Positions 1 to 37,306 of a stretch of DNA of 64,000 nucleotides are shown one piece after another; within the stretch, counting starts at the first letter, position 1, and each line of letters opens with the position of its first letter. Both the position numbers and the translations under genes were made by a program. Source of the stretch: Lineolata rhizophorae (taxonomy: Eukaryota; Ascomycota; Dothideomycetes; Lineolatales; Lineolataceae); the NCBI GenBank assembly GCA_010093515.1, contig MU001691.1, forward strand, positions 1 through 64,000, in the 5' to 3' direction. The notes under the pieces were generated by a model. The model was not told the origin of the DNA. It did not search any database and saw only the letters and a list, made by a program, of their open reading frames with translations.

Positions 1-339
1 CAATTGAGAAAGGGCCAAGAGGAGCAGGCCAAGTTGACGGTGCTGGTGGCGGAGGAGCTCCGCCATCTCCGAGAGGCAAATGACATGCTCTCAAGACGTC
101 GGCAGCGCAAGAGGAAGCATATCAGCACTCAGAGACCTCTCAGCATGCTAGAAGGAAGGGAATTGGTCGATCATCCTGCCATTGAGGCTCAATTGCAGCA
201 AGAAATGCTGGTGGATGCACCCATCGCGGTGGGCGTCACCACCAAAAGAAGGCGATGTGGTCACTGTGGCATTGAAGGACACAACAGTCGGACATGTCAG
301 GCTGGTTCCCAAGCTGCTGGAGCTTCAAATGCTGCTTAA
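1..339 (+). mobile_element. C-terminal end of a pogo/Fot-type (Tc1-mariner) transposase, partial
   Basis: The frame is open from the window edge to a stop at 337-339. It shows a basic stretch (RRRQRKRKHI), then a linker, then a single zinc knuckle CGHCGIEGHNSRTC near the end. In fungi this order, a lysine/arginine-rich patch followed by a C-terminal CCHC knuckle, is typical of the tail of pogo-like DDE transposases. The catalytic DDE domain would lie upstream, outside the window, so activity cannot be judged. The first in-frame start-like codon is TTG, which fits an internal fragment. MULE-type transposases can carry a similar knuckle and are the main alternative. Confidence 0.6.
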
Positions 340-1063
340 AACGCTCGAATCCGATGAGTTTTGTTTGAGATATTGGCATTTTGCTGATGAAGATGCTGGT
401 GGGAGTGCCACTCGCTTGGGAATGCCACTCGCTTGTGGATTACGTTAATACTACTGTACGTGAATATATTAGGAGTAATCTAGTATAAGGTCCTTAGACC
501 CCGAATTATTTAAGGTCGCTTACCAACCCGGCGCGATTACTACTAACTAATACTTGATTATCTTAATAACCCCGCTCTATAAGCTATGAAAAATATTTCT
601 AGGACTAAATAGCCTCGTTTCCGCTTTCTACGGTACTATTTTTAGGTATTTTAAAGTCGTGGTAGGGGAGGAAGGCCGCGATATGATTATATACGCCCCC
701 GATGCGATTTTCACAGATTTGGCGGGATACGTTGGATCCAGAGCGTTTAAGGATGAACGTTGTGGACGCCTTCCAAACATGCATTTCAGAAAACATTTTG
801 CAGAGAGCGAGAGGACAAGGGAGCGTATGATCTGGCCTGTGCGGATCCAAACGACCGCAGACCATGTGTACGAAATAGATTGTGCCTTCGCACAGAGCAG
901 TTTTGTAGCCGCCTCAAGAACGCAGCGATCTTGTGACTGCTGCCATTCTTGGAATCTCGCAACTAGCCACCTTCCATCAATTTAGCTGAAGGTATACCTC
1001 ACGAGAGCAGAGTCAGACTATCATCAATTTCCTAACCAAAACCTTGCGCACAAAGAATGTGCA
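340..1063. other. Spacer with transposon end and TA-rich patch
   Basis: Just after the transposase stop, the 14-mer TGCCACTCGCTTGG/TGCCACTCGCTTGT occurs twice (about 407-420 and 423-436). This could be a subterminal repeat of the element's right end. Bases 440-650 are rich in TpA and poor in CpA, as expected of RIP. Bases 650-1,063 show no gene and probably include the 3' UTR of the following minus-strand gene. Confidence 0.4.
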
Positions 1064-4000
1064 TTAATCACCGCCAAAGACCAAAAGACTTTGGATATTG
1101 ATTCTGCCAAATCCACGTTGGCGCAACAATTCCCGACCACGGTGGACCGGGAACTCGGCCACGGTCATGATGCTGACATCCTCTAGGCCGATGCCAGCTT
1201 CATCCAATAGCTTTAGCACCGCACAAAGCGTCTCCCCTGTGGAGAACACATCGTCCACCACCACCAATGACTTGCCCCTAGGGACCACGTTCCGCTCTAT
1301 TTCGATCCGCTTCTCTTTCGAACTGTTGGATGCTGAAGACGAGACATACGACGGCGACTTGATAACAGAAACGGTGGGTGGAGGGAGCTTGCCAGCTTCG
1401 CGAATCAGCACCAAAGGCACATCGACTCGCGAGGCCAACGCCGACGCATAGACAAAGCCGCCAACCTCGCAACACGCCACCGCATGGACTTTGGCCCAGT
1501 CACCGGTGAAGTGGGTTTGCAGCAGAGACGTGCATAGGGCCAGCCCACCCGGCTGCTGTGAGATGCCGAGCACGTGGCGGAACTCGATGCCCGGACGTGG
1601 GAAGTCGGGCACTGGGCGCACCATATTTGCCAGTCGCTCCAGGTCCTCGTGGAAAAGGGGAAGCAGGTAATGTTCGGCGAATCTTTTCGCCGCCTCGTTT
1701 CCGGCCGCATCATTGTCGAAGATGAGACTGGGCCGGTAGTCCGAGTCCGTCAATTTTGATCTGCTATCATTGCTGTCCTTGTTGTCGTCACCATCATCGT
1801 CGCCGCCGTGGCACTCTCGGCGAATCTGCCGCGTCTGTTTACTGGCTCGGACGTGAACCTCGAGTAGCCTGCTGTCGGGTACCAGATGCGATAAGGCTGC
1901 GACGGGCGCCACGTCTCTCATCCCGGAGATTAGCAGCACGTCCACATCTACGGCAGCGTACACCACATTCAAAAAATGCTCCTCGGGTAGCCGAGGTCGT
2001 CGTCGCACTTGTCCCTGGAAAAATGCGGTCAATGCTGGCCGGTGTTGCTCCTTGTAGACACGATCCCAAAGCAGGCGGCTCAGGTCGGCACCGGTAGCCT
2101 CCGCGTATTCGCGCTTGGTCGCATCGCTAATGCTGACTGCACGCACTGTAAGGCTCTTCTGGGTGCATCTGATGAACACGGAGGCCCAGACGTCGGCACA
2201 ATAGTCCTTGCCGGTGCAGCTTTCGCCCGTGACAAGAATGATAAGCTTCGGTTGCATAGGCGCTTTCGGAAGCGGGCAGGCGAAAGCCAGCACGTTATGC
2301 GGGTCCAAGCTGTGTTTGAGACGGGCCAGGCGCGGCCGGTTCGGTCCAAAAGCCTTGGCCGCCAGCGCGGCGTCCCGGGGGTCCGGCCCAAGGTCGGCGC
2401 CGTAAGCTCCGCTACTCAAGGACAACAAGTCCCCGACTACGTTGTAAACCCACCGCACGGCAGATCGTGCGGCTTCGGTGCCATCTTGGTCGCGGGGCCA
2501 GACACCGGTTACGACGCAGGCAAAGTCCCAGTCTCGACAGCCAAAGGCAGTGGCATCGGCCGCAACGTTGCCGACCGCTCCTCCACCTTGCAGCAGATGG
2601 AGATAGCAGAGTGGCGAGGGGCGAGTCTCAACGGCCGCCACCAAGCGGTCGACAATGTTCGCTTCTCCGATGCGTTTTAAGAATATACATCTCTTGAATG
2701 AGGAGGTCTTGCCGCCGCCGTGCCCGCCGTGCATCCTGGACACATACATCTCGGTCTCGAACAAACCGACGCCGTCCACTGCCTTGAAACCGTCCCCCAG
2801 CCCCCAAATTGCATCCACGGGCGCGTGTGCGGGTGTTGTAAAGTTGAGCTTAGTCGTAGATTCGAACATGGCCACGCCAAGATGCAGCTGGCCGGCGTCC
2901 CAGTACAGATACGCGTCTGCAGAACAGTTCTGGGGGAGCTTCCTGCCGACGAGGTTATCAAAGTCTCTGAGCCTGAGCCGCGCCTCGAGGTTGTCGCTTA
3001 GCGGGACCACCCAGTTTCGAGTCAAGTAGGTTGGAGCCGCATAAGCCTTGAAAGTCACGCTGACAACGATGCCAAAGTTGGTCCCGGCGCCTTTCATAGC
3101 CCATAACAGATCCTGTTCGTTTTCCGGGCGAACGACACCGGCCGGCCGGTGTGGCCTTGGTACACGGCCGACGCAGAGGATCTGGCCAGAGTCGACGCTG
3201 ACCATAATGGCACCGACAATGGCATCGCATGCGAGCCCGTGCAACCTAGCCAGGTGCCCGATGCCGCCTTGTAGCCACAGCCCCGCACCTACGCTTGGGC
3301 GAGCCCCCAGGGGTACTGTCACGCCCGCCGCCATGGTCTTGTGGATGATATCCCCCGTCTTGCAGCCGGCCTCGGCGACGACCAAGGGACCGGAACCGGA
3401 ATCGGAATCTCCTACGTCCTCTCCCGCCGTGAGAATGTTTACTTGGTCAAAGGCGCCCATGTCGACGGAGAGAACGTTGGGCCAGAGGCAGTGGTCACTA
3501 TGACCCCCGCCGACGACGGTTAGGCCGACCCCGTGCTTCAGAGCCCATCGAACACACTGCTGGACTTGTTGGACCTCTGTCGGCCTAATAATCGAGGCGG
3601 GCCGGTGGAGGCGAGCCTCCCGGTTTTTAACCGTCTCGTCCCCCTTCACTAATGTCACCTGGGCCGTCAGCTCCGGCAACGTGGTGGCATGTTGGGTAAA
3701 GGCCGCCATGATGTTGGGCGAGCTGAATAAGAGATGGTCTGAGTGAGCTTCCTCGCGACGGCCTAGGGCGCGGCACTCCTTGCGCCAATCGACTCGGATA
3801 GCGTTGTCGACGTCCATATCCTGCATGACAAACCCCGCGACGAAAGGAGCAAAACTGTCCAGCACTTCATCGTTATCCGCGATGCAAACGACTCCAGTAG
3901 GGAAAGAAGCCGTTCGATGGCACACTAAGCCGTCGAGGCGCAGAGCCCCGTCGCGATGAAAAACCACTACCATTCCGCCTTGTGGCCATTCAACAAGCAG

Positions 4001-4546
4001 TTCCAGCGCTCGTTCGATGAATCTGCGTTTGGGCTTCATGCCGTACATGCTGTGGCAGAATAGGATGATGTCGTATTTTTCGTCATTATCCTTCGTACTA
4101 GTACTGGCACCGCTCTCTATGTTGTCCTGCAGAACGAATGGAATCCGATGGATGTCAGGCGGGTCTTGCATACAGGGCAGTGGGGACTCCGTCTCGCAGG
4201 TAGAGCAAAGCCATTCTTCCAACCTCGTCGCAAACAAGCCGTTAGGCTCGAATGCAGTGTATTTCCTGACCTTCTGTCTCAGACGGTCAGGAAGAAATCC
4301 AAGTAGGCTCTTCGGACCGGGTCCGATTTCCAGCACCGAAATATCGATACGCGAGTTGAAGAGAGGGATTAGCAGCTGAGATAGTTGAGGGATAATGAAG
4401 TCTTGGTACGTCGTCCATCCTGAGTCCCGCGCTAAGATTTCGAAGCCAGCGCTGTACTGTGTGTCGGACAACGGCTGCTTCGGAGACGATGTCGTTGCAT
4501 TGGCTTTCTGCCTGAGGGCCCGCTTTAATGACTCGAGGGTGGCCAT
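1064..4546 (-). CDS. Four-domain fusion: SAM methyltransferase, FAD-linked oxidase, PMK-like P-loop kinase, APRT-like domain
   Basis: One uninterrupted frame of 1,160 codons; I chose ATG at 4544-4546 because the frame upstream to 4672 has only a TTG. Counted from that ATG, the domains in order are as follows. A Rossmann methyltransferase spans about residues 25-300, with SAM motif VLEIGPGPKSLLG; it resembles histamine-N-methyltransferase-like fungal domains. A PCMH/BBE-type FAD oxidase spans about 310-755, with VVGGGHSDH containing the usual flavin-linking His; the Cys-Pro site that links FAD a second time in berberine-bridge enzymes reads GARPSVG, so only one link is predicted. A short BBE tail (SLDPHNVLAF) follows. 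A P-loop kinase spans about 765-960 (VTGESCTGKD, then KREYAEATG and YKEQHRP, the pattern of animal-type phosphomevalonate kinase). An APRT-like domain closes the protein (VPDFPRPGIEFR, then PRPP loop VVVDDVFSTGET). Substrates are unknown. Each domain call is fairly sure; a joint pathway is inference. The divergent neighbour is GTP cyclohydrolase I. Confidence 0.85.
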   Translation of the reverse strand: MATLESLKRALRQKANATTSSPKQPLSDTQYSAGFEILARDSGWTTYQDFIIPQLSQLLIPLFNSRIDISVLEIGPGPKSLLGFLPDRLRQKVRKYTAFEPNGLFATRLEEWLCSTCETESPLPCMQDPPDIHRIPFVLQDNIESGASTSTKDNDEKYDIILFCHSMYGMKPKRRFIERALELLVEWPQGGMVVVFHRDGALRLDGLVCHRTASFPTGVVCIADNDEVLDSFAPFVAGFVMQDMDVDNAIRVDWRKECRALGRREEAHSDHLLFSSPNIMAAFTQHATTLPELTAQVTLVKGDETVKNREARLHRPASIIRPTEVQQVQQCVRWALKHGVGLTVVGGGHSDHCLWPNVLSVDMGAFDQVNILTAGEDVGDSDSGSGPLVVAEAGCKTGDIIHKTMAAGVTVPLGARPSVGAGLWLQGGIGHLARLHGLACDAIVGAIMVSVDSGQILCVGRVPRPHRPAGVVRPENEQDLLWAMKGAGTNFGIVVSVTFKAYAAPTYLTRNWVVPLSDNLEARLRLRDFDNLVGRKLPQNCSADAYLYWDAGQLHLGVAMFESTTKLNFTTPAHAPVDAIWGLGDGFKAVDGVGLFETEMYVSRMHGGHGGGKTSSFKRCIFLKRIGEANIVDRLVAAVETRPSPLCYLHLLQGGGAVGNVAADATAFGCRDWDFACVVTGVWPRDQDGTEAARSAVRWVYNVVGDLLSLSSGAYGADLGPDPRDAALAAKAFGPNRPRLARLKHSLDPHNVLAFACPLPKAPMQPKLIILVTGESCTGKDYCADVWASVFIRCTQKSLTVRAVSISDATKREYAEATGADLSRLLWDRVYKEQHRPALTAFFQGQVRRRPRLPEEHFLNVVYAAVDVDVLLISGMRDVAPVAALSHLVPDSRLLEVHVRASKQTRQIRRECHGGDDDGDDNKDSNDSRSKLTDSDYRPSLIFDNDAAGNEAAKRFAEHYLLPLFHEDLERLANMVRPVPDFPRPGIEFRHVLGISQQPGGLALCTSLLQTHFTGDWAKVHAVACCEVGGFVYASALASRVDVPLVLIREAGKLPPPTVSVIKSPSYVSSSASNSSKEKRIEIERNVVPRGKSLVVVDDVFSTGETLCAVLKLLDEAGIGLEDVSIMTVAEFPVHRGRELLRQRGFGRINIQSLLVFGGD

Positions 4547-5080
4547 TTCAGTTCGTCCGGGCGCGCGAGTACCTCGCACGACGGCGACGTCGGTTGATGT
4601 GGGCCTTGTTGAGGTCAACCGCCATATATTGAAGCGGACTGATGAAGCAGTGAAAGGAGGGTTTGACTGCAAGAGCGGGGAACCTCGGCGCAGCAGCGTT
4701 ACACCAGACTGGGATGCGTTTGTGCCCGGTACATGAATATGGGCAGGCCGGGCCGTCTATGATCCACATGATGGGCGTAGCCATCTCTGACCCGCCAAAA
4801 CATGCACATGGGCCATCGACATCATCCAGGCCAGTGCAAGTTTGATTTCATTCGTCATTGAACAACACTAATACATATACCCCAAAAGCCGCCGCCTACC
4901 GTCCGAAAACTCCCCGCCATAGATCCACCGCTGTTGCCTCTGAGCCAACCTACCGAGGCTCGCGACAAGAAAGAGAGAGACTCTCTGTATGCGCAGATAC
5001 AGAACTCGGACCAGGGTCGCCAGGTCGTGAACTTCGACGGACCGAACGGATACTTCCCGAAATCATCCGCAAGCGCGAAT
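4547..5080. promoter_or_regulatory. Shared divergent promoter of the fusion gene and GTP cyclohydrolase I
   Basis: About 0.4-0.5 kb separates the two start regions, and the genes point away from each other. No clear TATA box is visible. The GTP cyclohydrolase frame continues upstream of its first in-frame ATG (5081) with sequence resembling the usual fungal N-terminus (DSLYAQIQ, NGYFPK). Part of this stretch may therefore be coding through a missed upstream exon, or be read from a non-ATG start. Confidence 0.45.
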
Positions 5081-5949
5081 ATGGATGGCAGCAACGGCTG
5101 CGAGACACATCAGATGGCACCTAGCGAGATCGACGTAGAAGGGTACAACGAGCGCAGTCCTACGACACCATTGGCTACAAGCCGCGCACAGAGCCCCTTC
5201 ATCCAGCACCCCACTATCGATTTTGATGGCTTGAGTTGGCCAAGTAGGTAGATCTCCTGGCGGAAGACCACAGGCTAACTAACAGATCCAAGGTCGAGGA
5301 ACACTCCAGAGGAAGGAGGCGACCGAGAAGGAAAAGGAAGAATGTCTAGCCAAGCTGTCAGGCGCTGTAAGGACGATCCTGGAATGCGTGGGCGAGGACC
5401 CTGACCGAGAGGGCCTGCTTAACACTCCAGAGCGCTATGCGAAGGCCATGCTCTTCTTCACAAAAGGCTACGAAGAGAACCTAAGTATCATCGTGAACGG
5501 CGCCATGTTTCATGAAGAGCACGATGAGATGGTAATCGTGAAAGACATTGAGTTCTTTTCGCTTTGCGAGCACCACCTCGTGCCATTCGCTGGGAAGGTA
5601 TGATTACTGTCTCCTTTCCTGGTCTATTATAGGCTCATAACGCCAGATGCACATCGGATACATCCCCAACCGTCGAGTAATTGGCCTCTCCAAGATCGCT
5701 AGAATAGTCGAAATGTTCTCGCGGCGACTTCAAGTCCAGGAACGGCTCACAAAGCAGGTCGCCCTTGCCCTCTCCGAAATGCTCCAGCCGCAAGGCATCG
5801 GCCTCGTTGTAGAGTCCAGCCATCTCTGCATGGTGATGCGTGGGGTGCAGAAGACTGGAGCAATTACCACCACCAGTTGCATGCTCGGCGGCTTGAGGTC
5901 GACCGCTAAAACGAGGGAGGAGTTTTTGAACCTCATCAGCCGAAAATAA
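5081..5949 (+). CDS. FOL2: GTP cyclohydrolase I
   Basis: Converts GTP to 7,8-dihydroneopterin triphosphate, the first step of folate and tetrahydrobiopterin synthesis, in the cytosol. Exons are 5081-5243, 5293-5597 and 5647-5949; introns are 49 bases each. The first intron's acceptor is chosen at 5291-5292 because it restores the conserved WPSRGT junction. The product is 256 residues from the first in-frame ATG. Zinc and catalytic residues are present in [10 protein letters not shown] and [10 protein letters not shown], as is the GLSKIAR segment. The N-terminus is uncertain: fungal homologs are longer, and homologous-looking codons continue upstream to about 4934 without an ATG. The C-terminal part ([15 protein letters not shown]) differs slightly from the usual CMLGCMRSSAK form. 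That leaves open whether this is the housekeeping copy or a paralog serving the adjacent fusion gene. Confidence 0.92.
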
Positions 5950-6918
5950 AACTGCACATTTATACTATCCTGAGCTACGAGCTACTTCTGGAGGAGATAT
6001 CGACTATCGAGGTACTGCAGACGGAATGTGGACATAGATACACAACAACTGCTACTAGGGCTTGAGCAGCCAAGTCTGTTGCCATGTATTAAGAATACCA
6101 GGACTGCTTGCTTCTACAATTAAGCCTACTACCACATTCCAACTGTAGAATAGTGACACATCGATCAAATCTTCAAAGACTTGCGAGGCCGACTTCAGAG
6201 GTCTCGTGAAACTGGAAGGAATAGTTGTACACAGACCATTACACCGCCAGCTTCAATTTTTTTTTAGGAGGTATGATGAGAATGGTTAAAATATTCGACG
6301 CAAGGGATCAGAATGATTTCGTTCAAGTTGAATGATCGCGGGACGGTTGGCACGGATCAGGTGGGGACGCAATCCTGTCCAATGCCGAACTTTTTCTGGC
6401 ACCTGCTCAACCTGCTGAGCTAGAATTCGATTCTATTGGTCGACATCCACTCATGCACACCTCAAGAGCTGTAACGAGCGATCCTGGTGACCAAAGCCAC
6501 TGTGTGACGGACTGGGCGTTGATGAGACGGCGCAGACTATTGACCGGTGATTCTGACCACTGATTTCGTAACACGCCAGCTTCTAGTCTTTCTGCACCGC
6601 ACATCTTACGTTGTGTAACAATTAAAACTTTTAGTGTTGGGACAACAGCCCACCAATGATGCTCATCGCCGATCTAATGCTTGTTAAGGTGGCGACAGGG
6701 GATACGACAGGGCACAGGGTTTGAGCAAGGGTGCAGCCATCGACAAGCATCACTGGTAGCAGTCGTCCCAATGCCGGAAGCTTGACTGTTGTACGCGGAA
6801 GCACAAGGAGCGTGATGCGTTATCAAATTACAGGTCAGAGTTGCCGGTCAATTATTCACACTGTCTAATCAATGCCCAGCCCATCACATAATCGCCGCAA
6901 ACCAACCGAACACGAAGT
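5950..6918. other. Spacer, no gene recognised
   Basis: Mixed composition with a run of nine T at about 6258. No frame resembles a known family. It holds the 3' UTR of GTP cyclohydrolase I. Confidence 0.4.
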
Positions 6919-7642
6919 ATGTACCGCGCCGGCGTCTTTGTGGATCAGGTAGTGGCTGTTTTAGATGAACCACAAGCTGCTGCACAACTTGCTGGGCTAG
7001 TATCGACATTCTGGGCCTAATCGCGAAGAAATGCACGCGAAGAAATGCACGCGAGTGCTCACTTGAGGGTGATTGGAAGGCCAGTCTGAACGGCCTCGTG
7101 AGGAGCTTAACGGACTTTTGGCCGGGCGCGCTGAAGACGCACGTGTCTGAGAAAGGTAACTTCCTCGCAATGCTAGAAGATCTCTTAGACCACATGCTAA
7201 CCTTATATAATAGTCTGGAATGAATGGGAGTCTTATTAATGCGCAGAATCAGGCCGCCATAAGTGGTGCTTCCATGCTCACGATCTTGAAGGATCTCAGT
7301 CATCAAGCGGTATGGAATGCGAGCTCGGACTCTAACTCCGGGTCTTATATGCAGGGCCTGGAGTTCATGTCGCCGTCCTCAACGCAATCAGCGATGCAAT
7401 CCAGTCCGGCACTCCGTTCCTCTATCGTAACAGAGGGCCCTTTACACGAGTTGTGGGTGCATTTTGAGCATGAAGGTGCATATTATATGGATTTCTTTGA
7501 GTCCTGGCGCACTACACGTAAATGCGATGCGAGAGGGCTTGCGCACGTTCTAGCTCGGATAATAGAATGGGGCCGAGGAAGCTTCAAGGGCAGCGGCGTG
7601 GAAAAGTTGGACAAAATCCAGAGGTGTGGGGCTTTTGGATAA
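6919..7642 (+). pseudogene. Decayed gene of unknown family
   Basis: Protein-like stretches follow one another on the plus strand but in different frames: an ATG at 6919 opens MYRAGVFVDQVVAVLDEP; around 7080-7140 comes WKASLNGLVRSLTDFWPG; around 7360-7440 comes AVLNAISDAIQSGTPF; and 7465-7560 gives EHEGAYYMDFFESWRTTRK. Each has balanced amino-acid composition, whereas the intervening frames do not. This fits one inactivated gene rather than several small ones. I do not recognise the family. Unspliced introns could explain part of the frame changes. Confidence 0.35.
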
Positions 7643-7690
7643 CTGTCCACATGAGCAGGCATAGCTTCTAGTAATATATCGTACGAGGTC

Positions 7691-7747
7691 GGGCCTTCGG
7701 CCCTCCTTCGCTGCTCGCTTTGCGAGCAGGGGCCCGCTCCACGGGCC
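7691..7747. repeat. Three adjacent GC-rich hairpins
   Basis: GGGCC-TTC-GGCCC (7691-7703), CTGCTCGC-TTT-GCGAGCAG (7711-7729) and GGCCCG-CTCCA-CGGGCC (7731-7747) are perfect short palindromes arranged head to tail in otherwise AT-rich DNA. They look like part of a repeat or mobile element, but no family is assigned. Confidence 0.7.
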
Positions 7748-7890
7748 TTCCACTACCGCCTGTTCGGCGCGGAAAAGCTTCTACTCGACTGCTAAAATTC
7801 GAATTGCGCGGTGCAGTATTGTATAGCGTTGTATATAGTAATACCAGCGTCGTAGAGCAACGTGTAGAAAGGTAACGTAGAGGTAGTAGC

Positions 7891-8038
7891 GGAGAGGCAG
7901 TATAGCGATCTGGAGGCCGTATTACGTATAGCGATAGCATAGTAACTTCTAGTTGCAAGCAGAGCGTAGCGATCTAGAAGTTACTATGCTACTATCGCTA
8001 TACTTAATACAGCCTCTAGATCGCTGTGCTATCTCTCC
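7891..8038. repeat. Large imperfect inverted repeat (arms about 62 and 65 bases, loop 21)
   Basis: The left arm 7891-7952 and right arm 7974-8038 are reverse complements apart from a few substitutions and a 3-base gap. The innermost paired end reads GTAACTTCTAG / CTAGAAGTTAC. The DNA could extrude a cruciform, and a transcript would fold into a long hairpin. It sits immediately before the minisatellite. Confidence 0.85.
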
Positions 8039-8039
8039 G

Positions 8040-8460
8040 CCCTTAGATAGTATAGGTAGCACGCAGTAGAGCATAGGAGTATACAGAGCAATAGAGGAGC
8101 ATATAGCATAGGAGGAGCATACAGAGTAGTAGAGTGTACAGAGCATACAGAATATAGAGAATATACGTATATAGAATAGTAGAGCATATGGAGCAGTAGA
8201 GCAGTAGAGCACTGGAATATACAGCGCACAGAGCATACAGAGCACAGGAGTATGTAGAGCAGTAGAGAGCATACAGATTACAGGAGTATATTGAGCACAG
8301 GAGTATACAGAGCAGTAGAGCACTGGAGGAGCACATAGTATAGGAGCATAGTGCAGGAGCATAGTACAGGAGCATAGTACAGGAGCATACAGTACAGCAC
8401 ATAGCAAGGGTATAGCAAGGGCACAGCAAGGGCACAGCAAGGGCACGTAGCAGAGGAGTA
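8040..8460. repeat. Minisatellite built on GAGCATA/ACAG motifs
   Basis: Degenerate copies of GAGCATA-CAG and related motifs fill about 400 bases with strong purine bias on the plus strand. Cleaner blocks are a 13-base unit (AGTACAGGAGCAT) at about 8,345-8,390 and an 11-base unit (AGCAAGGGCAC) repeated about four times at about 8,402-8,446. Leucine/cysteine-rich open frames on the minus strand are a product of the repeat, not genes. Confidence 0.8.
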
Positions 8461-8875
8461 AGGAGAAGAGAGCGAACAGCAGAGCAATAGCACCGGAGGG
8501 TCTCCTTATATAGATATTGCTCCTATATCTAGACTTTTCCTAGTTCGTACGCATAAGACCTTCCTAGGCATAGAGCACTACAGAGCACGGTCTCAGCGGC
8601 GTAAAGCACGGTCTCTATATACAGCTATACGTCGGAAGTCGGTACGGAAAGTGACCGAACGATTAGGCTAATCAGAACACAACTTAACGGTGTGGAATTA
8701 TTTGGACTGAAGGAAGATGTATATAAGAAAAAGATAAAAAGATGATGATGATCTAGAGGTTTTCCATAGCATACCAATGAAATAAGGTTTGTCCGATGCG
8801 ACTACCGGCCGACGTAACTAAGCCTTGAGGGTAAATTGCCCCGCTTTTTGTAGAGGCGTATCTGAAGCTTATGCC
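8461..8875. other. Spacer after the minisatellite
   Basis: AT-rich and unassigned. It contains paired motifs such as CACGGTCTC (twice, about 8,586-8,615). No gene is seen. Confidence 0.35.
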
Positions 8876-8885
8876 TATATAAATA
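8876..8885 (+). promoter_or_regulatory. TATA box
   Basis: TATATAAATA lies about 100 bases before an ATG at 8984. It is followed by a CT-rich tract (about 8,910-8,930), a common arrangement at filamentous fungal start sites. The gene it would drive appears decayed. Confidence 0.5.
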
Positions 8886-8983
8886 GAGCCTTCCGTCCCG
8901 TAAATGCCCCCTGCTTTCTCCTTCTCCGCACCCGACGGCGAAAAACTTGATCTTTGTATTCAAGCCCAAACCTAACTCCGATC

Positions 8984-9814
8984 ATGTCGACAACCTACCA
9001 GACAATCAAGGTCGCCCCGCGTGGAAAAGGTAGCGTAGCGAGAATAACCTGCGTGGATTTCCAGTCTATCCAACAGCCAGCTGAGAGAAATATATGTGGC
9101 CTTGACCAGGCATCAAGTCTTAGAACTTTCCAACAGCTACCTCACTCAGGAGCAACAGCTAGCCCTAAAGCGTCGGTTATGTGAAGCGTCAGGTGTCTCG
9201 GCGGACAATCTCCGGACTACAAAGATCACAAAGCAAGGCGAATATAGCAACTACGAGCTCGACCGGCATACCTATGGTTACTTTTCAGAGACCGGCCCTA
9301 AAATAGGCATATTGAACGCGATTACCATCCCGTCAACAGCCGTCAGCACTGGCTTCTGCAACATGATAAGTCTCTAGGAGGATATGCGGGGGACATTCAA
9401 CATGAGTTAAGGGGAAAGTCGATCTGCAATGACACCGTCTATACCCAATATAGCCGGCCTCGCAGACAGACCAAGCTGACGCCCGAAGGTTTCCGCAAAT
9501 AGCCGCACGTAGAGCATCCAATCGCCCACACTAATCCAGATGCAAGGAAAGAAGCTCTCCGTCTTGGAACGCGGAAATGGGCATTCATCAAGGGTATAGA
9601 TCAACGCCGAAGCGATGAAATTCTTGAAGAACTCTAGAAGATAGTCGATAGCGGAGAGTATACGTTTGAAGCGGAATGGCAGGAGGACATGTTGTTTATA
9701 TGGCGTAATGACCTTGTCTGGCATTTCAAGCCGAAAGGAAATGGCGAGTCAAGACTACTCGATCGGACCTCGGTCCCTAGTAGGGCGCTCGTCACGGCGT
9801 CACTGTCTTGCTGA
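8984..9814 (+). pseudogene. Decayed gene of unknown family
   Basis: After the TATA box an ATG at 8984 opens MSTTYQTIKVAPRGKGS. A second frame at about 9096-9375 carries LSNSYLTQEQQLALKRR and GEYSNYELDRHTYGYFSE. A third at about 9420-9811 carries TQYSRPRRQTKLTPEGFRK, HPIAHTNPDARKEALRLGT and AEWQEDMLFIWRNDLVWHF, interrupted by stop codons. The segments look like consecutive parts of one protein that has lost its frame; introns may account for some breaks. The family is not recognised. Confidence 0.4.
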
Positions 9815-9980
9815 AGTTTCAGATAGCTCTCTCATTTGAAATCGAACGTACCGACATTTGCTCCGTCTTAACAATCCTACGCCGTGACGATTTGGCCCGG
9901 TCCCGGCATCGCCACCCTACGCTAGTCCGGAACATGCCTCTAGCACGAGACAGCGTCGACTATCGTCGACTATGAATGTC

Positions 9981-31559: not shown

Positions 31560-34500
31560 CTACCCCGCCCTCTTCACCAGTGCGATGCGCTCGGCCATGG
31601 GCACGAAAAACTCCTCCATGATCGCCCCCATGTAGTGCGTGTGGTTGGCATCATGGTTTGAGTACAGGTTGTGCGCGAGCTCGTGCGCGACAGTGCTCCA
31701 CCACGCAATCATGGGCGGGATCATCGCGTCAGCGCTCGCGACGAAGGAGCCGTCGGGTGCCCGCGCGAAGCGCCCCAAGTCCGCTTTCTTGAACGCTTCG
31801 TAGTTAACAAACACAGCGCCGTCGGCATTGAAGGCGATGCTGCTCGACCTGGCATCGGCGAAGACGTGCAGCTTTCCCGGCGCGAAGCCGTAGGAGGCGG
31901 CGACGTGCTCGAGCGCGGCGCCGAAGATGCGCATCCCGGGCATTTCGTCGCGGACGTAGGCCCCGCGCTCGGGCTCTGGCACGTCGCGGCTGATGAACAG
32001 CGGCATGTCGCCGACGGCCCCGGCGCGCTCCAGGCTGTGGCCGGGTTTCCGGTCGCAATACGACGCCTTGACCTCGTCCACCGTTTGTGAAAAGTCGCGG
32101 CTGTTGTGCGCCTCCCCGTTGTATGCGCGCATGCCCTTGAGCGCGCGGTTGATGCGGTCACGCGTCACGGCCGGGTTGGATTCGCCGACGCCCTGGGGTT
32201 TGCCCGTGTCGGCCCCGTCGCCGAGCAAGCCTTTGAGCGGTCCCAGCGAGTCCTGGCTCTGGTTCCAACCGAGATGGCCTTTGAGGCGGTCAAAGAGCTT
32301 CTTCCCGTCGTTGACGAGGTTCAGCTCGTTGAACGCCTCGCTCAGGTCGTCCTTGGGCTTGCTAGGCGAGTCGTCCTGTTCGAAAGCTCCGGGAATGGAC
32401 GGCTGCTTGGGCTGGAGCGGCGGCCTAGGCGGCGTCTTGGCCGCGGCCTCCAACCGGCGCCGCTCCTCCTGAGCCATTTGCTCGTTGGCAATGCGCGATT
32501 CGTACTCGCGTCGCCGGATGATGCGCTCGACGTTGTAGCCCATGTCCCGGAGGCGGGTGAGGCGGGTGAACATGATTTTCTCAAAGGCGAGCGCGTCGCG
32601 TTGTTGCGGGCGCTTAAGCAGCAGCTGCACGAGCTGCCTAGCTACTTCGAATTGATCGAAATCCGCAGTGACGCAAAGGCATTCGCGCCTGGTGCCTTCC
32701 AGTGCCGCCGTGGTCTTGCGCGAGTAGGACAACCGGCGAGTCTTGAGCGAAACGACCATCTGGATCGCAGACCGAAACTCCACCTTGAGGTGGCGGTCGA
32801 GCCACTTGTGGTCCCGCAGGATCTGGTCGTGGCTGCACTCGTGGAAAAAGAGTCGTGAGCGCTCGATGATGCGAGCCCGAAGCTGGGTAGCGTGGCCGCG
32901 GTCGGGCGTCTTGGTCCCGGTGTTGAGCCGCACGTCTACGAGCGACCCGATGAACGGGGTACCGAGGCTCGTGTAAAATGCCTCGAGGCGCTCGTCCTCC
33001 GGAGCGGCGTGCAACGAGTCCTTGAACCGCCGAAAATGCTCCACCTGATCGACGATGACAATGTCCGACGCCTTTTGTAGCGACCACTCGCGGGCGAGCT
33101 CCTCTTCGTCGTCGCTATCCACATCCGCAACCTCCACCGTGCTCGACATCATCTGCTTTTCGGGGTCCTTAGACGTAGAATTATGGGCGACGACGTCCCT
33201 GTAGCCCAGCAAAAACGGGACTTTCTTCATCTGCTGCCACAGCGCCTTGTTCTCCTTCAGCTTAGCATTGGCCGCTGCGAACGACCTGAGAAGCTCAAGG
33301 TAGCCCTCCTGCTGGAGCATGTTCAGTGTGTCCGCAGGGCTCCGGACCGTATTCTGCGCCAGCTCCTCGGTCGTGGGCTGGTGCTTGGCCCCCACCTTGA
33401 GTAGGAACAAGTTGGCCGCCGTCCCAAAGTCCACGAACGGCACGAGCCTATCGTACTTGTGCGACGAGCCAATATAGCATAGACGAGGCTGGATAAACGA
33501 CGTAGTCTCGTCCCCCTTCCGGCGGTCCTTGTAAGGGACGATGGCGCTTTCGCCAAGTCTTGCCGCCAGCGAGGTGCCGATCTCGTCCGACCGGTCGGCG
33601 AAATACTCAAAGAGCAGCCTCGCCTTCGGGCGCGAGCTCAGAAACTCGTGCGGCTTCGAGAGAAACGTCGCAGCGCAAGTCTCGATGTCGGGGTCGCGCC
33701 GGACGCCGAACATGTCGGCTCGGTTGTGGAGATCGGCGCGCAGGATCCGGAACCCCAGCCGCGCCGCCTTTTCGTTGGTGAAGCACTCGGATGGTGACAC
33801 GATTTCCGGACTGCCCTCGACGGGCAGAAACTTTAGGTTCTGGACCGTCCGCCGGTCGAAACTCAGGTAGTAGTGTAGCGATACGTTGTTGAAGAAGACG
33901 TTGAGCGCGAGGTTGTAGCGCTGCCAATCGTTGCCGGCCGTTTTGCCCATGATATCGAACAGGTCTGACGCGAAGGCGTGCCTCTTGAGGCCTAACCGGA
34001 ACAAGAGCTTGGCCTCGCCGCTGGACGGACTGAGGTACTCGGGCCACTTGAGCACCGGCAGGCCCAGGTTCTTGTTCTGCTGCTCGGGGAAGCAGAGGTC
34101 CGACACTTGGTACAAGTGGCTCGGCTCGACCTCCTTCGCGAGCTCCGCGGGACAAAACGCCTTGGTGCGGAGTCGCTTGATATCCGCCTCGGGCATGTCG
34201 TCCTGGATCGACGCCAGGTACTTGATCAAGTCGACGTGGCTCCACCTCGTCGCGACGCCGTCGCCGTCGTCCGGAGCGTCGAGGAGGTTGAAGATGACGC
34301 TAAGTTCGATCGTCTTCCGAACGCCCAGGCACACTAGGAAACGCTCCTTGACGCCCTGGACCTGCACCTGCGGTAGGTCCTTGAACAACTTCACGGAGCT
34401 AAAGTACGACTCACCCGGCTTTCGCAGGCCTTGCTTGGTGGGAATCACCGCCCGATGCGACAGGGTCTCGATGACTGTCGTCTTCATATCTGGAGGTAGT

Positions 34501-36776
34501 TGTTCCCAGCCCTTGGAGAGGTGCTGCAGGACATGAGAGGCAAAAGGCGCGGACGTGGTGAGCTCTCGCTCACATTCGCCGTGGTTCACGAGGAACATCA
34601 ACCAAGTAACGAGCGACAGCTGCACCCAACCAAAAGACTGCAGCTCCTTGTGCGTCAGACGGACGGACAGCGAGGTAGGAATGGTGTATGGAGGAAGAGG
34701 CATGCTGGCGGAGATCTTGGCCGCGTCGGCGTACGAGTTGACGTCCCGTAAATCGAGAACGCTAGGTGCCAGGCGCTTCGCCAGCGACCGCGACGTTTCG
34801 TTGGGCTGCTGGCTCTCTGCCGAGCCCTCGTCAGTAGACATAGAAATGACGGTCGAGTCTAGCAGCCTCTTGGCGATTCCGCGGTCAAAGTGCTGGCCGT
34901 CGACTTTGCCGGCTAGCCAGCGTAAAAATTCAATCCCCTGGCTTTCGCTAAGGGGGTGGCGCTCCAGCTCTAATTTGATGTCGCTGATGCCCAGCTCCTG
35001 AAGGAAACCTCGGTTGAACAGCGTTGCTATGAACATCTCGTTGGACGTCAGGATCGTCTTCGGGATGAGCGGGGTTGTCTCTATAAAGCTCATGTCCTCC
35101 TCGGTGACGCGCACGTCGGCACAGCGCAACACGCCGCGCGTCGACAGGATGTCAATATCCCGGGAGCAGTCCCAGAAGCCCTCTCCAATGATGGAGCCGA
35201 TGTGCGGCGAGGGCGTTGACTCGGTCCAGGTGTAGCGCTGCAACACGTTCACGGCGTTGGGCGCCACCTTTGCTACTTCGTCACGCCGGGGAGTCTTCGC
35301 GGAGTCGCTCACAGCCTTCGAAAGAGCGCCCTTGATCTCGGCCATCTCAGAGGCGTACAAGATGCGGCAAGCCGCCCCCGCGATTCGGAGCATGTCGATG
35401 TTCCACGTGCTCACATGGCGCGCGCTCAGGTCGACATTCTCGCGCTCCACAGTCGGGATGAGCGCAGGCGCCGAGACATGACAGTGAAGCCCCGTCGTTT
35501 GCGAAGTCGGGAAGCCGATAAATATCCTGCCGCCGGCCGTCGGGATGACGGAGGCAAAAATGTCCGCCATCTTCGCGCCGGTGAGGCCGGACGTCGTGGA
35601 CAAGGCGGCCGTCGTCTCGTCGTGCGGCGTCGTCAGCAGCGAGATCTCGGTCTGCTTGGGCGGCGCCTTCTTCGTCGCCCGCTCGAGCTCGCTAGCGATG
35701 CCGCCAACGTTCGTCTTGATAGCCACGGTGCTGACGCGGAGGAACACCGTTCCGCCGGAGACGCCGCACAGGTCCTCGACCGCCGCCTTCTGCGCCGCGG
35801 CTTCCTTCTCAGCCGCGGCGGCTTTGGCGTTGGCTTGAGGGTCTATCGACTTAGTGAGCCTCGTGAAGAACGACTTGAACCCGACGTTGGACCCGCCGGC
35901 CTTGTTCTGCGGCTTGGGGGTGCCCGCGTACGTCCCTTGGGAGTCCGGAGAGTCCGACTGCCGGTTCCAAACGATGGCATTGATCCACTGGGCGTCAATC
36001 TGGGCGCTGTGTTGGTCGACGCCCGTGATTTGCATCAACCGCCCTTTCGACTGCGTCTTGAGCCGGCTGGGGATCGGCACGGGCAGCGAAGGGGCCATCT
36101 TCTTCTTCAGGGTGATGACATTCACATCGTCGACGAACAGCTCGAGCTGCTCCAATGCTACAAAGGTCAAACTAGTAGCTAGAAACTTGCACAACGACGT
36201 AAGGTCCGGTAGGGGGGACGTCGTGTCTCGGTAGTCCAGAATGAACGACGTGTCCTTGCTCGACTGGTCCGACCCACTCATGTACTTGGTGAACAGGGCG
36301 TTGTCTTTCCAGAAGAAGGCCATGCTATTTCCCCCAGACACGACGAAGGGGTTCTCGCAGTCGTTGAAGACGCTGTAAAAACCGACGCCAAAGGCGCCAA
36401 TCTTGGTCTCGTCTGGGTTCCCCTCGGCAATGCGCTTGAGGCGGGCCCAGTCCTCGCCCGAGAACGGCTGGCCGTCGTTGGTGACGACCAGGCGCCGGAC
36501 GGTGTGGTGCTGCAGCACATGGCGGAACAGCGCAGACCGGTCCGTCGTGGACGGGAGCGGGACCGCGTGCGAGGGCAACGTGTCGAACTTGATGGTCACT
36601 TTCGAGGCCGAAGCGTCCGCGGCGTTCTGGACCAGCTCGCGCAGCGTCGTGAACTCGCTAGAGTAGCGGGCCAAGATCTTGTCGACGAGAGCGCGGATGT
36701 TGGCCGTGACGACCTCGTCGGCCCCCACCCGGAGCGTCTGCTCCCGCATGCGGGCATAGTCTACGTCCCCGGCCAT
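31560..36776 (-). CDS. Sacsin-like GHKL ATPase (DUF3684) with C-terminal HExxH domain
   Basis: A single exon of 1,738 residues; start ATG 36774-36776. The N-terminal HSP90/sacsin-type ATP-binding domain has the N-box in FTTLRELVQNAADASA (about residues 41-56) and the lid glycines in GAFGVGFYSVF (about 128). The long middle part matches the fungal DUF3684 architecture by layout. Near the end, WSTVAHELAHNLYSNHDANH (HELAH at 1698-1702, HDANH at 1708-1712) has the look of a zinc metallopeptidase site with a further His. A chaperone or quality-control role is inferred from the sacsin likeness; a protease activity is only suggested by the motif. Absence of introns over 5.2 kb is notable here. Divergent from TRS120. 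Confidence 0.9.
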   Translation of the reverse strand: MAGDVDYARMREQTLRVGADEVVTANIRALVDKILARYSSEFTTLRELVQNAADASASKVTIKFDTLPSHAVPLPSTTDRSALFRHVLQHHTVRRLVVTNDGQPFSGEDWARLKRIAEGNPDETKIGAFGVGFYSVFNDCENPFVVSGGNSMAFFWKDNALFTKYMSGSDQSSKDTSFILDYRDTTSPLPDLTSLCKFLATSLTFVALEQLELFVDDVNVITLKKKMAPSLPVPIPSRLKTQSKGRLMQITGVDQHSAQIDAQWINAIVWNRQSDSPDSQGTYAGTPKPQNKAGGSNVGFKSFFTRLTKSIDPQANAKAAAAEKEAAAQKAAVEDLCGVSGGTVFLRVSTVAIKTNVGGIASELERATKKAPPKQTEISLLTTPHDETTAALSTTSGLTGAKMADIFASVIPTAGGRIFIGFPTSQTTGLHCHVSAPALIPTVERENVDLSARHVSTWNIDMLRIAGAACRILYASEMAEIKGALSKAVSDSAKTPRRDEVAKVAPNAVNVLQRYTWTESTPSPHIGSIIGEGFWDCSRDIDILSTRGVLRCADVRVTEEDMSFIETTPLIPKTILTSNEMFIATLFNRGFLQELGISDIKLELERHPLSESQGIEFLRWLAGKVDGQHFDRGIAKRLLDSTVISMSTDEGSAESQQPNETSRSLAKRLAPSVLDLRDVNSYADAAKISASMPLPPYTIPTSLSVRLTHKELQSFGWVQLSLVTWLMFLVNHGECERELTTSAPFASHVLQHLSKGWEQLPPDMKTTVIETLSHRAVIPTKQGLRKPGESYFSSVKLFKDLPQVQVQGVKERFLVCLGVRKTIELSVIFNLLDAPDDGDGVATRWSHVDLIKYLASIQDDMPEADIKRLRTKAFCPAELAKEVEPSHLYQVSDLCFPEQQNKNLGLPVLKWPEYLSPSSGEAKLLFRLGLKRHAFASDLFDIMGKTAGNDWQRYNLALNVFFNNVSLHYYLSFDRRTVQNLKFLPVEGSPEIVSPSECFTNEKAARLGFRILRADLHNRADMFGVRRDPDIETCAATFLSKPHEFLSSRPKARLLFEYFADRSDEIGTSLAARLGESAIVPYKDRRKGDETTSFIQPRLCYIGSSHKYDRLVPFVDFGTAANLFLLKVGAKHQPTTEELAQNTVRSPADTLNMLQQEGYLELLRSFAAANAKLKENKALWQQMKKVPFLLGYRDVVAHNSTSKDPEKQMMSSTVEVADVDSDDEEELAREWSLQKASDIVIVDQVEHFRRFKDSLHAAPEDERLEAFYTSLGTPFIGSLVDVRLNTGTKTPDRGHATQLRARIIERSRLFFHECSHDQILRDHKWLDRHLKVEFRSAIQMVVSLKTRRLSYSRKTTAALEGTRRECLCVTADFDQFEVARQLVQLLLKRPQQRDALAFEKIMFTRLTRLRDMGYNVERIIRRREYESRIANEQMAQEERRRLEAAAKTPPRPPLQPKQPSIPGAFEQDDSPSKPKDDLSEAFNELNLVNDGKKLFDRLKGHLGWNQSQDSLGPLKGLLGDGADTGKPQGVGESNPAVTRDRINRALKGMRAYNGEAHNSRDFSQTVDEVKASYCDRKPGHSLERAGAVGDMPLFISRDVPEPERGAYVRDEMPGMRIFGAALEHVAASYGFAPGKLHVFADARSSSIAFNADGAVFVNYEAFKKADLGRFARAPDGSFVASADAMIPPMIAWWSTVAHELAHNLYSNHDANHTHYMGAIMEEFFVPMAERIALVKRAG

Positions 36777-37306
36777 GTTGTTGCCGCCTGCCTGCCTAGT
36801 CCGGAGCTATACTCTGCAACAACGCGGGTAAAAGCGAATGCACGACAAGATTGGAATAGCATGCGTGAAAGATGCCCGATAGCTGAGAATAAATACCGAA
36901 TGGCAGCGGAAGTCCGGGGAAGGCTGGAGAAGGTTATGGAGAGGTGAAGGGGTTACGGCGTCTCACCGGCGTTTACGCTGCCCGGCCGCGCCTATGCGCG
37001 GAGTTCCTGCCGCCACCCGCGTGCACCGCCACGATACTGCAAGCATCATCCATGCGGCGGTGTGGCGCCAGCCGCCTCCCGCCGAGTCCCCGCGGTCGTG
37101 GCGCCGCACGCGACACCCGCGCACCCTTGCCCCGGCCCCGGCATATCCCGCTCCCGCGTCGTCGGCGCACCTCACCATCTCGAGAGCTCGAGCAGCTCAC
37201 CACCTCCCGGCCGCGCATCGTTCGCACCCCCGCGCACGGATGATCCCATGAAGAAGCGCGCGCGAACCCGGCTCCCCGTCACTCCCGAGAGCCGCCAGAT
37301 GCTGCC
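36777..37306. promoter_or_regulatory. Divergent promoter, sacsin-like gene and TRS120
   Basis: 530 bases between opposed starts, strongly GC-rich over the half next to TRS120. A second ATG at 37299 is out of frame with TRS120 and overlaps its start region, so it could act as a short upstream frame. Confidence 0.4.

Follow-up and report, generated by a model that had tools for sequence, protein, structure and literature searches.

A four-domain fusion gene next to a second GTP cyclohydrolase I gene in Lineolata rhizophorae, with a possible role in pterin-type metabolism

Judged from its sequence, one open reading frame near the start of contig C22 of Lineolata rhizophorae encodes a genuine, unusual multi-enzyme protein, which carries from N- to C-terminus a probable SAM methyltransferase, an FAD oxidase of the PCMH/BBE type, a P-loop domain resembling animal-type phosphomevalonate kinase and a phosphoribosyltransferase (PRT) domain similar to APRT. 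A paralogue of the GTP cyclohydrolase I gene, here called folE2, lies divergently beside it. The favoured reading, to which a probability of about 40% is given, is that the fusion and FolE2 make a specialised metabolite of the pterin kind (a pteridine or lumazine). Each domain of the fusion belongs to a known family; their combination, and its position so close to folE2, are apparently new, at least to us, and no paper describing the four-domain architecture was found in the open-licence literature, which was covered in part. The stretch of DNA analysed (the window) comprises the first 64,000 nt of C22, in a genome of 31 Mb and 48 contigs; the folE2 introns, the TTAGGG telomeres and the gene content agree with a fungal source. 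Its features in this region are as follows.

1-447, no strand: fragment of a transposon-like repeat element truncated at the contig start; the final ~51 bp are a terminal inverted repeat
457-714, no strand: subtelomere-like repeat; C1, C13, C14 and C23 carry the whole or a part of it close to a contig end
1064-4546, minus: fusion protein gene, one open frame of 1,160 aa (ATG at 4546, stop ending at 1064)
1067-1684, minus: APRT-like PRT domain, residues 955-1160 (PF00156, APRT structures, PRPP-type motif)
1667-2254, minus: phosphomevalonate-kinase-like P-loop domain, residues 765-960 (PF04275, GESCTGKD at 774)
2252-3649, minus: PCMH-type FAD oxidase with BBE-like C-terminus, residues 300-765 (PF01565 and PDB matches)
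3647-4546, minus: probable class I SAM methyltransferase, residues 1-300 (PF13489 below cut-off, and motifs)
4547-4767, no strand: intergenic stretch of 221 bp between the start codons of the two divergent genes, putatively a shared promoter
4768-5949, plus: folE2, a paralogous GTP cyclohydrolase I gene of 343 codons with the stop counted (profile match, FolE1 comparison)
4768-4833, 4889-5243, 5293-5597 and 5647-5949, plus: folE2 exons (exon 1 and intron 1 from splice motifs and frame only)
about 7680-8780: dispersed repeats
8986-9766: degraded TauD-type dioxygenase relic

Gene structure of the fusion

The initial annotation had placed four families in order in a single intronless frame of 1,160 codons. 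This was borne out on the minus strand, with three Pfam domains above the cut-off and the methyltransferase weak; 'intronless' means here that the frame needs no intron. From stop to stop the frame spans 1,230 codons (1067-4756), whereas the longest open run in 300 mononucleotide shuffles of the same interval was 317 codons. In the Pfam search of the whole fusion FAD_binding_4 (E 4.7e-12, residues 316-457), P-mevalo_kinase (E 1.2e-20, residues 772-889) and Pribosyltran (E 1.1e-16, residues 995-1119) were found together, all three exceeding the gathering cut-off. Small-molecule tailoring, as first proposed, is the natural reading of such an architecture. Over every one of the four domain segments the fusion frame had a coding score above zero and outscored the other five frames, so that no segment appears decayed. 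An assembly or annotation artefact that merged two or more genes is very improbable: the contig start, only ~1 kb away, speaks for it, but the frame is uninterrupted and both composition and coding score are similar over all four segments, and with this continuity a join within the fusion is unlikely.

Regarding relatives in other collections, a pattern for the kinase-PRT half matched 40 stretches in GTDB contigs, none of which was confirmed (prokaryotes, which say little about fungi), and a whole-fusion pattern gave no match in IMG/VR (viruses, which likewise say little about fungi). Forty plasmid records matched the fusion; coverage reached 80% in none of them, and the matches in the 30 records listed lay in the PRT part only. 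Such absence is expected for a fungal gene in prokaryotic, viral and plasmid collections. Single-sequence structure models had a mean pLDDT of 36, too poor for use, and were set aside.

Features of the domains

Residues 1-300 are probably a SAM methyltransferase. PF13489 scored 18.1 bits in the whole fusion (E 0.0024) and 21.1 bits on these residues alone (E 2.7e-4), against a cut-off of 27 bits, and LEIGPGPKS (at 72) and FEPNG (at 99), which we take to be methyltransferase motifs, occur in order. The best match in a PDB search of this domain (E 0.2) was a response regulator, not a methyltransferase.

The oxidase domain alone matched PF01565 with an E-value of 5.4e-13, and its PDB matches included EncM (E 5.7e-15), chitooligosaccharide oxidase (E 6.9e-15) and 6-hydroxy-D-nicotine oxidase (E 7.2e-15). 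With these enzymes it shares the PCMH FAD domain and the flavin-linking histidine motif (GGGHS at 346-350), whereas its middle, substrate-side part is unmatched in all three alignments. The cysteine of bicovalent members is absent, with GARPSVG at 414 in its place, and the flavin is therefore predicted to be histidyl and probably monocovalent, the roles of the flavin-linking and bicovalent residues being assumed. The BBE C-terminal domain scored 18.9 bits, under the cut-off of 20.6.

The kinase-like domain, taken alone, matched PF04275 with an E-value of 5e-22 (78.4 bits; gathering cut-off 33.8) and is the sole match to that family in the genome at E 0.001; phosphomevalonate kinase 3ch4 in the PDB, presumably the human enzyme, matched with an E-value of 0.0031. 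The TIGR01223 equivalog cut-off was missed (25.2 against 188.15 bits). Like the animal-type enzyme, the fusion has the P-loop family, GKD with its lysine and aspartate (within GESCTGKD, 774), YKE..R and an SRQQR-like stretch (QTRQIRR at 904, aligned with human QSRQQR). It differs from 3ch4 in basic residues that we take to lie on the substrate side, with ESC for KRK in the P-loop and RD for RR at 877-878, in an acidic low-complexity stretch beyond residue 910, and in being fused.

The PRT domain alone matched PF00156 with an E-value of 3.9e-18 (65.7 bits; cut-off 26.3), and the PDB matches included the APRT structures 4x45 (E 1.9e-18) and 1ore (E 2.6e-18), the latter presumably human APRT. APRT models were all below their cut-offs among the matches listed (25 of 29 families), with 80.6 against 185.85 bits for TIGR01090 and 92.6 against 125 bits for NF002636. 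The likeness to 1ore extends over the whole domain and includes a PRPP-type motif (VVVDDVFSTGET at 1095) in which D1098, D1099, T1103, G1104 and T1106 are kept, whereas the fusion PRT carries a 9-residue loop insertion and is part of a longer protein. Relative to human APRT, R67 is replaced by G1029, K88 by E1050 and E104 by S1066; the genome's own APRT (C21) retains R, K and E at these sites. R27 is shared by human APRT and the fusion but missing from the genome's own APRT, and so is not diagnostic. With the exception of Glu104, the roles of active-site residues in the PRT and kinase-like domains are our assumption. Glu104 of human APRT contacts adenine according to a table in PMC7414151, and the loss of this residue together with R67 and K88, all kept in the genome's own APRT, makes adenine an unlikely substrate of the PRT domain and ordinary APRT catalysis doubtful. 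The initial annotation had not noted the loss of these residues. In both the kinase-like and the PRT domain, motifs of the ATP and PRPP type are kept while substrate positions are altered.

Such a pattern could also point to non-catalytic domains. The PRT fold is used for sensing in PurR of Bacillus. By analogy, the last two domains might form a regulatory tail that senses PRPP or nucleotides, attached to a methyltransferase-oxidase, a reading considered unlikely. It would account for a PRT domain that retains the PRPP-type motif but has no counterparts of R67 and E104, and PurR is among the weaker matches of the PRT domain (TIGR01743, E 3.2e-6; 1p4a, E 1.6e-6). The P-loop GKD and QTRQIRR are, however, kept beyond the needs of a dead domain, and Pfam found no DNA-binding domain in the fusion.

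Cytokinin oxidases are PCMH enzymes, and a FAD oxidase with an APRT-like domain was considered for a cytokinin pathway. This is not favoured: no chain named as a cytokinin oxidase was among the PDB matches listed (all 39 at E 1e-4, plus the best 60 of 94), and the PRT domain has lost the adenine-contacting glutamate.

The folE2 gene

A family search gave two GTP cyclohydrolase I sites in the genome, at C17:277420-278010 (folE1) and C22:5361-5937 (folE2). FolE2 matches PF01227 over the cut-off, has the CEHH and SSHLC motifs, and is identical to FolE1 at 165 of 201 residues (82%) of the catalytic part, with pN 0.12 and pS 0.80 (saturated) between the genes. The introns after 5243 and 5597 are placed as in folE1; the first intron has no counterpart there. 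On this comparison folE2 is an intact, old, retained and constrained paralogue. The initial annotation had missed this gene, which starts divergently 221 bp upstream of the fusion. A sigma-70 and terminator scan of the 221-bp stretch gave no match, a bacterial-type scan being not meaningful for a fungus.

The PTPS/QueD family (PF01242) gave no match in the genome; the same search was positive in 9 of 14 control genomes. The product of FolE2 is therefore unlikely to go to tetrahydrobiopterin or to queuosine-type deazapurines. GTP cyclohydrolase together with a PRT recalls 7-deazapurine pathways. Both a pathway of that kind (toyocamycin- or queuosine-like) and a supply of tetrahydrobiopterin by FolE2 are held unlikely on the same ground.

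Chromosomal setting

The fusion and folE2 are probably among the outermost genes of a chromosome arm. Window positions 1-447 have four other genome copies at 99% and one at 98% over 1-435, and 397-447 also matches the opposite strand near several copies of the element. The adjoining repeat has matches near contig ends in C13 (457-714), C14 (504-714) and C23 (522-656). In C1, parts of 565-656 are matched at ~0.9 kb or less from a contig end formed by a TTAGGG tract, and the order there from 656 to 64 toward the telomere is that of the window. Bases 1-1,100 of the window contain no TTAGGG or CCCTAA, and the examined ends of C13, C14 and C23 had no terminal telomere repeats.

The pair is isolated: repeats flank it on both sides, together with the contig start at one end and the dioxygenase relic at the other. 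From 9984 (~10 kb) onward there are housekeeping genes, including an ERAP1-type aminopeptidase, Pex16, a DUF3684/sacsin-like protein, Trs120, a pof12-like F-box protein, Sae2 and a class I (C) tRNA synthetase. No NRPS was found among the 20 long window frames scanned, and neither these nor two short frames in 1-1060, six frames of 6000-9000 and three of 8850-9980 revealed an NRPS, a transporter or a regulator next to the pair.

Subtelomeres gather unrelated genes, and the two could be neighbours by chance at a gene-poor contig end, with folE2 as extra folate-pathway capacity and the fusion in an unrelated pathway. That FolE2 is a conservative paralogue would fit; the start codons, however, are divergent and 221 bp apart in two otherwise isolated genes, and chance is judged quite unlikely. 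The four-domain architecture and the folE2 neighbour are present in the DNA itself, whereas the functional link and the product are what we infer; for the link, the adjacency and the short divergent stretch are circumstantial evidence.

Comparison with known systems

By function, the pseudoiodinine cluster of Pseudomonas may serve as a precedent for a pterin product: as far as the parts of PMC9911603 consulted describe it, the cluster has a GTP cyclohydrolase (type II-like) and two methyltransferases, and toxoflavin is compared with it. These azapteridine sets thus combine a cyclohydrolase with methyltransferases as here, but they are bacterial, the cyclohydrolase is of type II, and no PRT or phosphomevalonate-kinase-like gene is among the seven psd annotations seen in that source (PMC9911603).

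Lumazine compounds, the other kind of product proposed here, include the penilumamides, the closest comparison among fungi, whose cluster is reportedly the subject of a later paper, Heard 2023. In the parts consulted, PMC9861175 describes the penilumamides as lumazine (pteridine) peptides of Aspergillus and Penicillium, thought to be made by an NRPS, and calls their cluster uncharacterised; this presumed NRPS origin sets them apart from the fusion-folE2 pair.

In the literature consulted, the closest functional parallel to the C-terminal half is Cns3 of cordycepin biosynthesis in Cordyceps, in which a nucleoside kinase is joined to a HisG domain (PMC8719641, seen in part). Cns3 likewise unites a kinase with a phosphoribosyltransferase in fungal specialised metabolism; its kinase and PRT families are others, and the sections consulted mention no methyltransferase, FAD oxidase or folE partner (PMC8719641). 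This fungal nucleoside pathway is a point in favour of a nucleoside-type product also for the present fusion. In such a pathway the PRT domain would couple PRPP to a modified base other than adenine, the kinase-like domain would phosphorylate the nucleotide or nucleoside, the methyltransferase and oxidase would modify base or sugar, and folE2 would be a bystander or supply a base precursor. The kept PRPP-type residues (D1098, D1099, T1103, G1104, T1106) and the P-loop lysine and aspartate of the kinase-like domain agree with it, but the missing R67, K88 and E104 counterparts, which make ordinary APRT catalysis doubtful, and the unexplained folE2 neighbour leave it on the unlikely side. The nucleobase- or nucleotide-like metabolite suggested initially was of this type; it fits the PRT domain, but folE2 points equally to a pterin (pteridine or lumazine).

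Proposed pathway

A pterin or lumazine product is favoured since the tetrahydrobiopterin and deazapurine routes are unlikely without PTPS/QueD. FolE2 would provide a dedicated supply of 7,8-dihydroneopterin triphosphate, the oxidase domain would oxidise the dihydropterin ring or a side-chain alcohol, and the methyltransferase domain would N- or O-methylate the pterin compound. The PRT and kinase-like domains may convert a purine base to NMP and then NDP, feeding FolE2; alternatively, they may add ribose phosphate and then phosphate to an intermediate. No precedent for a PRT or kinase-like domain in a pterin pathway was found in the literature, of which part was covered.

The order of steps could also be reversed, which is regarded as improbable. 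The fusion would then convert a methylated or oxidised purine-like base to a nucleotide and phosphorylate it, the PRT domain making the nucleotide and the phosphomevalonate-kinase-like domain acting as nucleotide kinase, and FolE2 would rebuild the product into a modified pteridine. If true, a natural product would arise by diversion of nucleotide salvage toward pterin synthesis.

As far as we know, phosphomevalonate-kinase-like domains have so far had no role other than in the mevalonate pathway. If the favoured pterin product is real, the fusion would provide one, in a small fungal pathway that has a GTP cyclohydrolase of its own. The four-domain architecture is a search handle for loci that cluster finders centred on NRPS and PKS could miss and, with only two genes, the pair is directly testable by heterologous expression.

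Repeats, a gene remnant and a large protein in the window

Features of the window
1-714: cut transposon-like element and adjoining subtelomere-like repeat
6496-6895: inverted repeat with 77-nt arms, behind folE2
7680-8780: dispersed repeat, with pieces on many contigs
8986-9766 (+): degraded TauD/TfdA-type dioxygenase, PF02668 matches in two frames
31563-36806 (-): 1,748-codon frame for a large protein that carries DUF3684 and a sacsin-type ATPase domain; ordinary, though its function is little known

The dioxygenase frame is broken by stops and frame shifts (PF02668, E 5.2e-12 in one frame and E 0.018 in another); this relic is possibly a third gene, since lost, of the fusion/folE2 locus. The dispersed repeat, whose pieces show identities of roughly 68-89%, includes a 49-bp inverted repeat (7889-8040) and looks like an old element that has decayed. 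The inverted repeat behind folE2 (arms 71% complementary, spacing 246 nt) may be a small, decayed element. The terminal inverted repeat of the transposon-like element measures about 51 bp, and the telomeric end of C1, another contig of this genome, carries this element and the subtelomere-like repeat in the same order.
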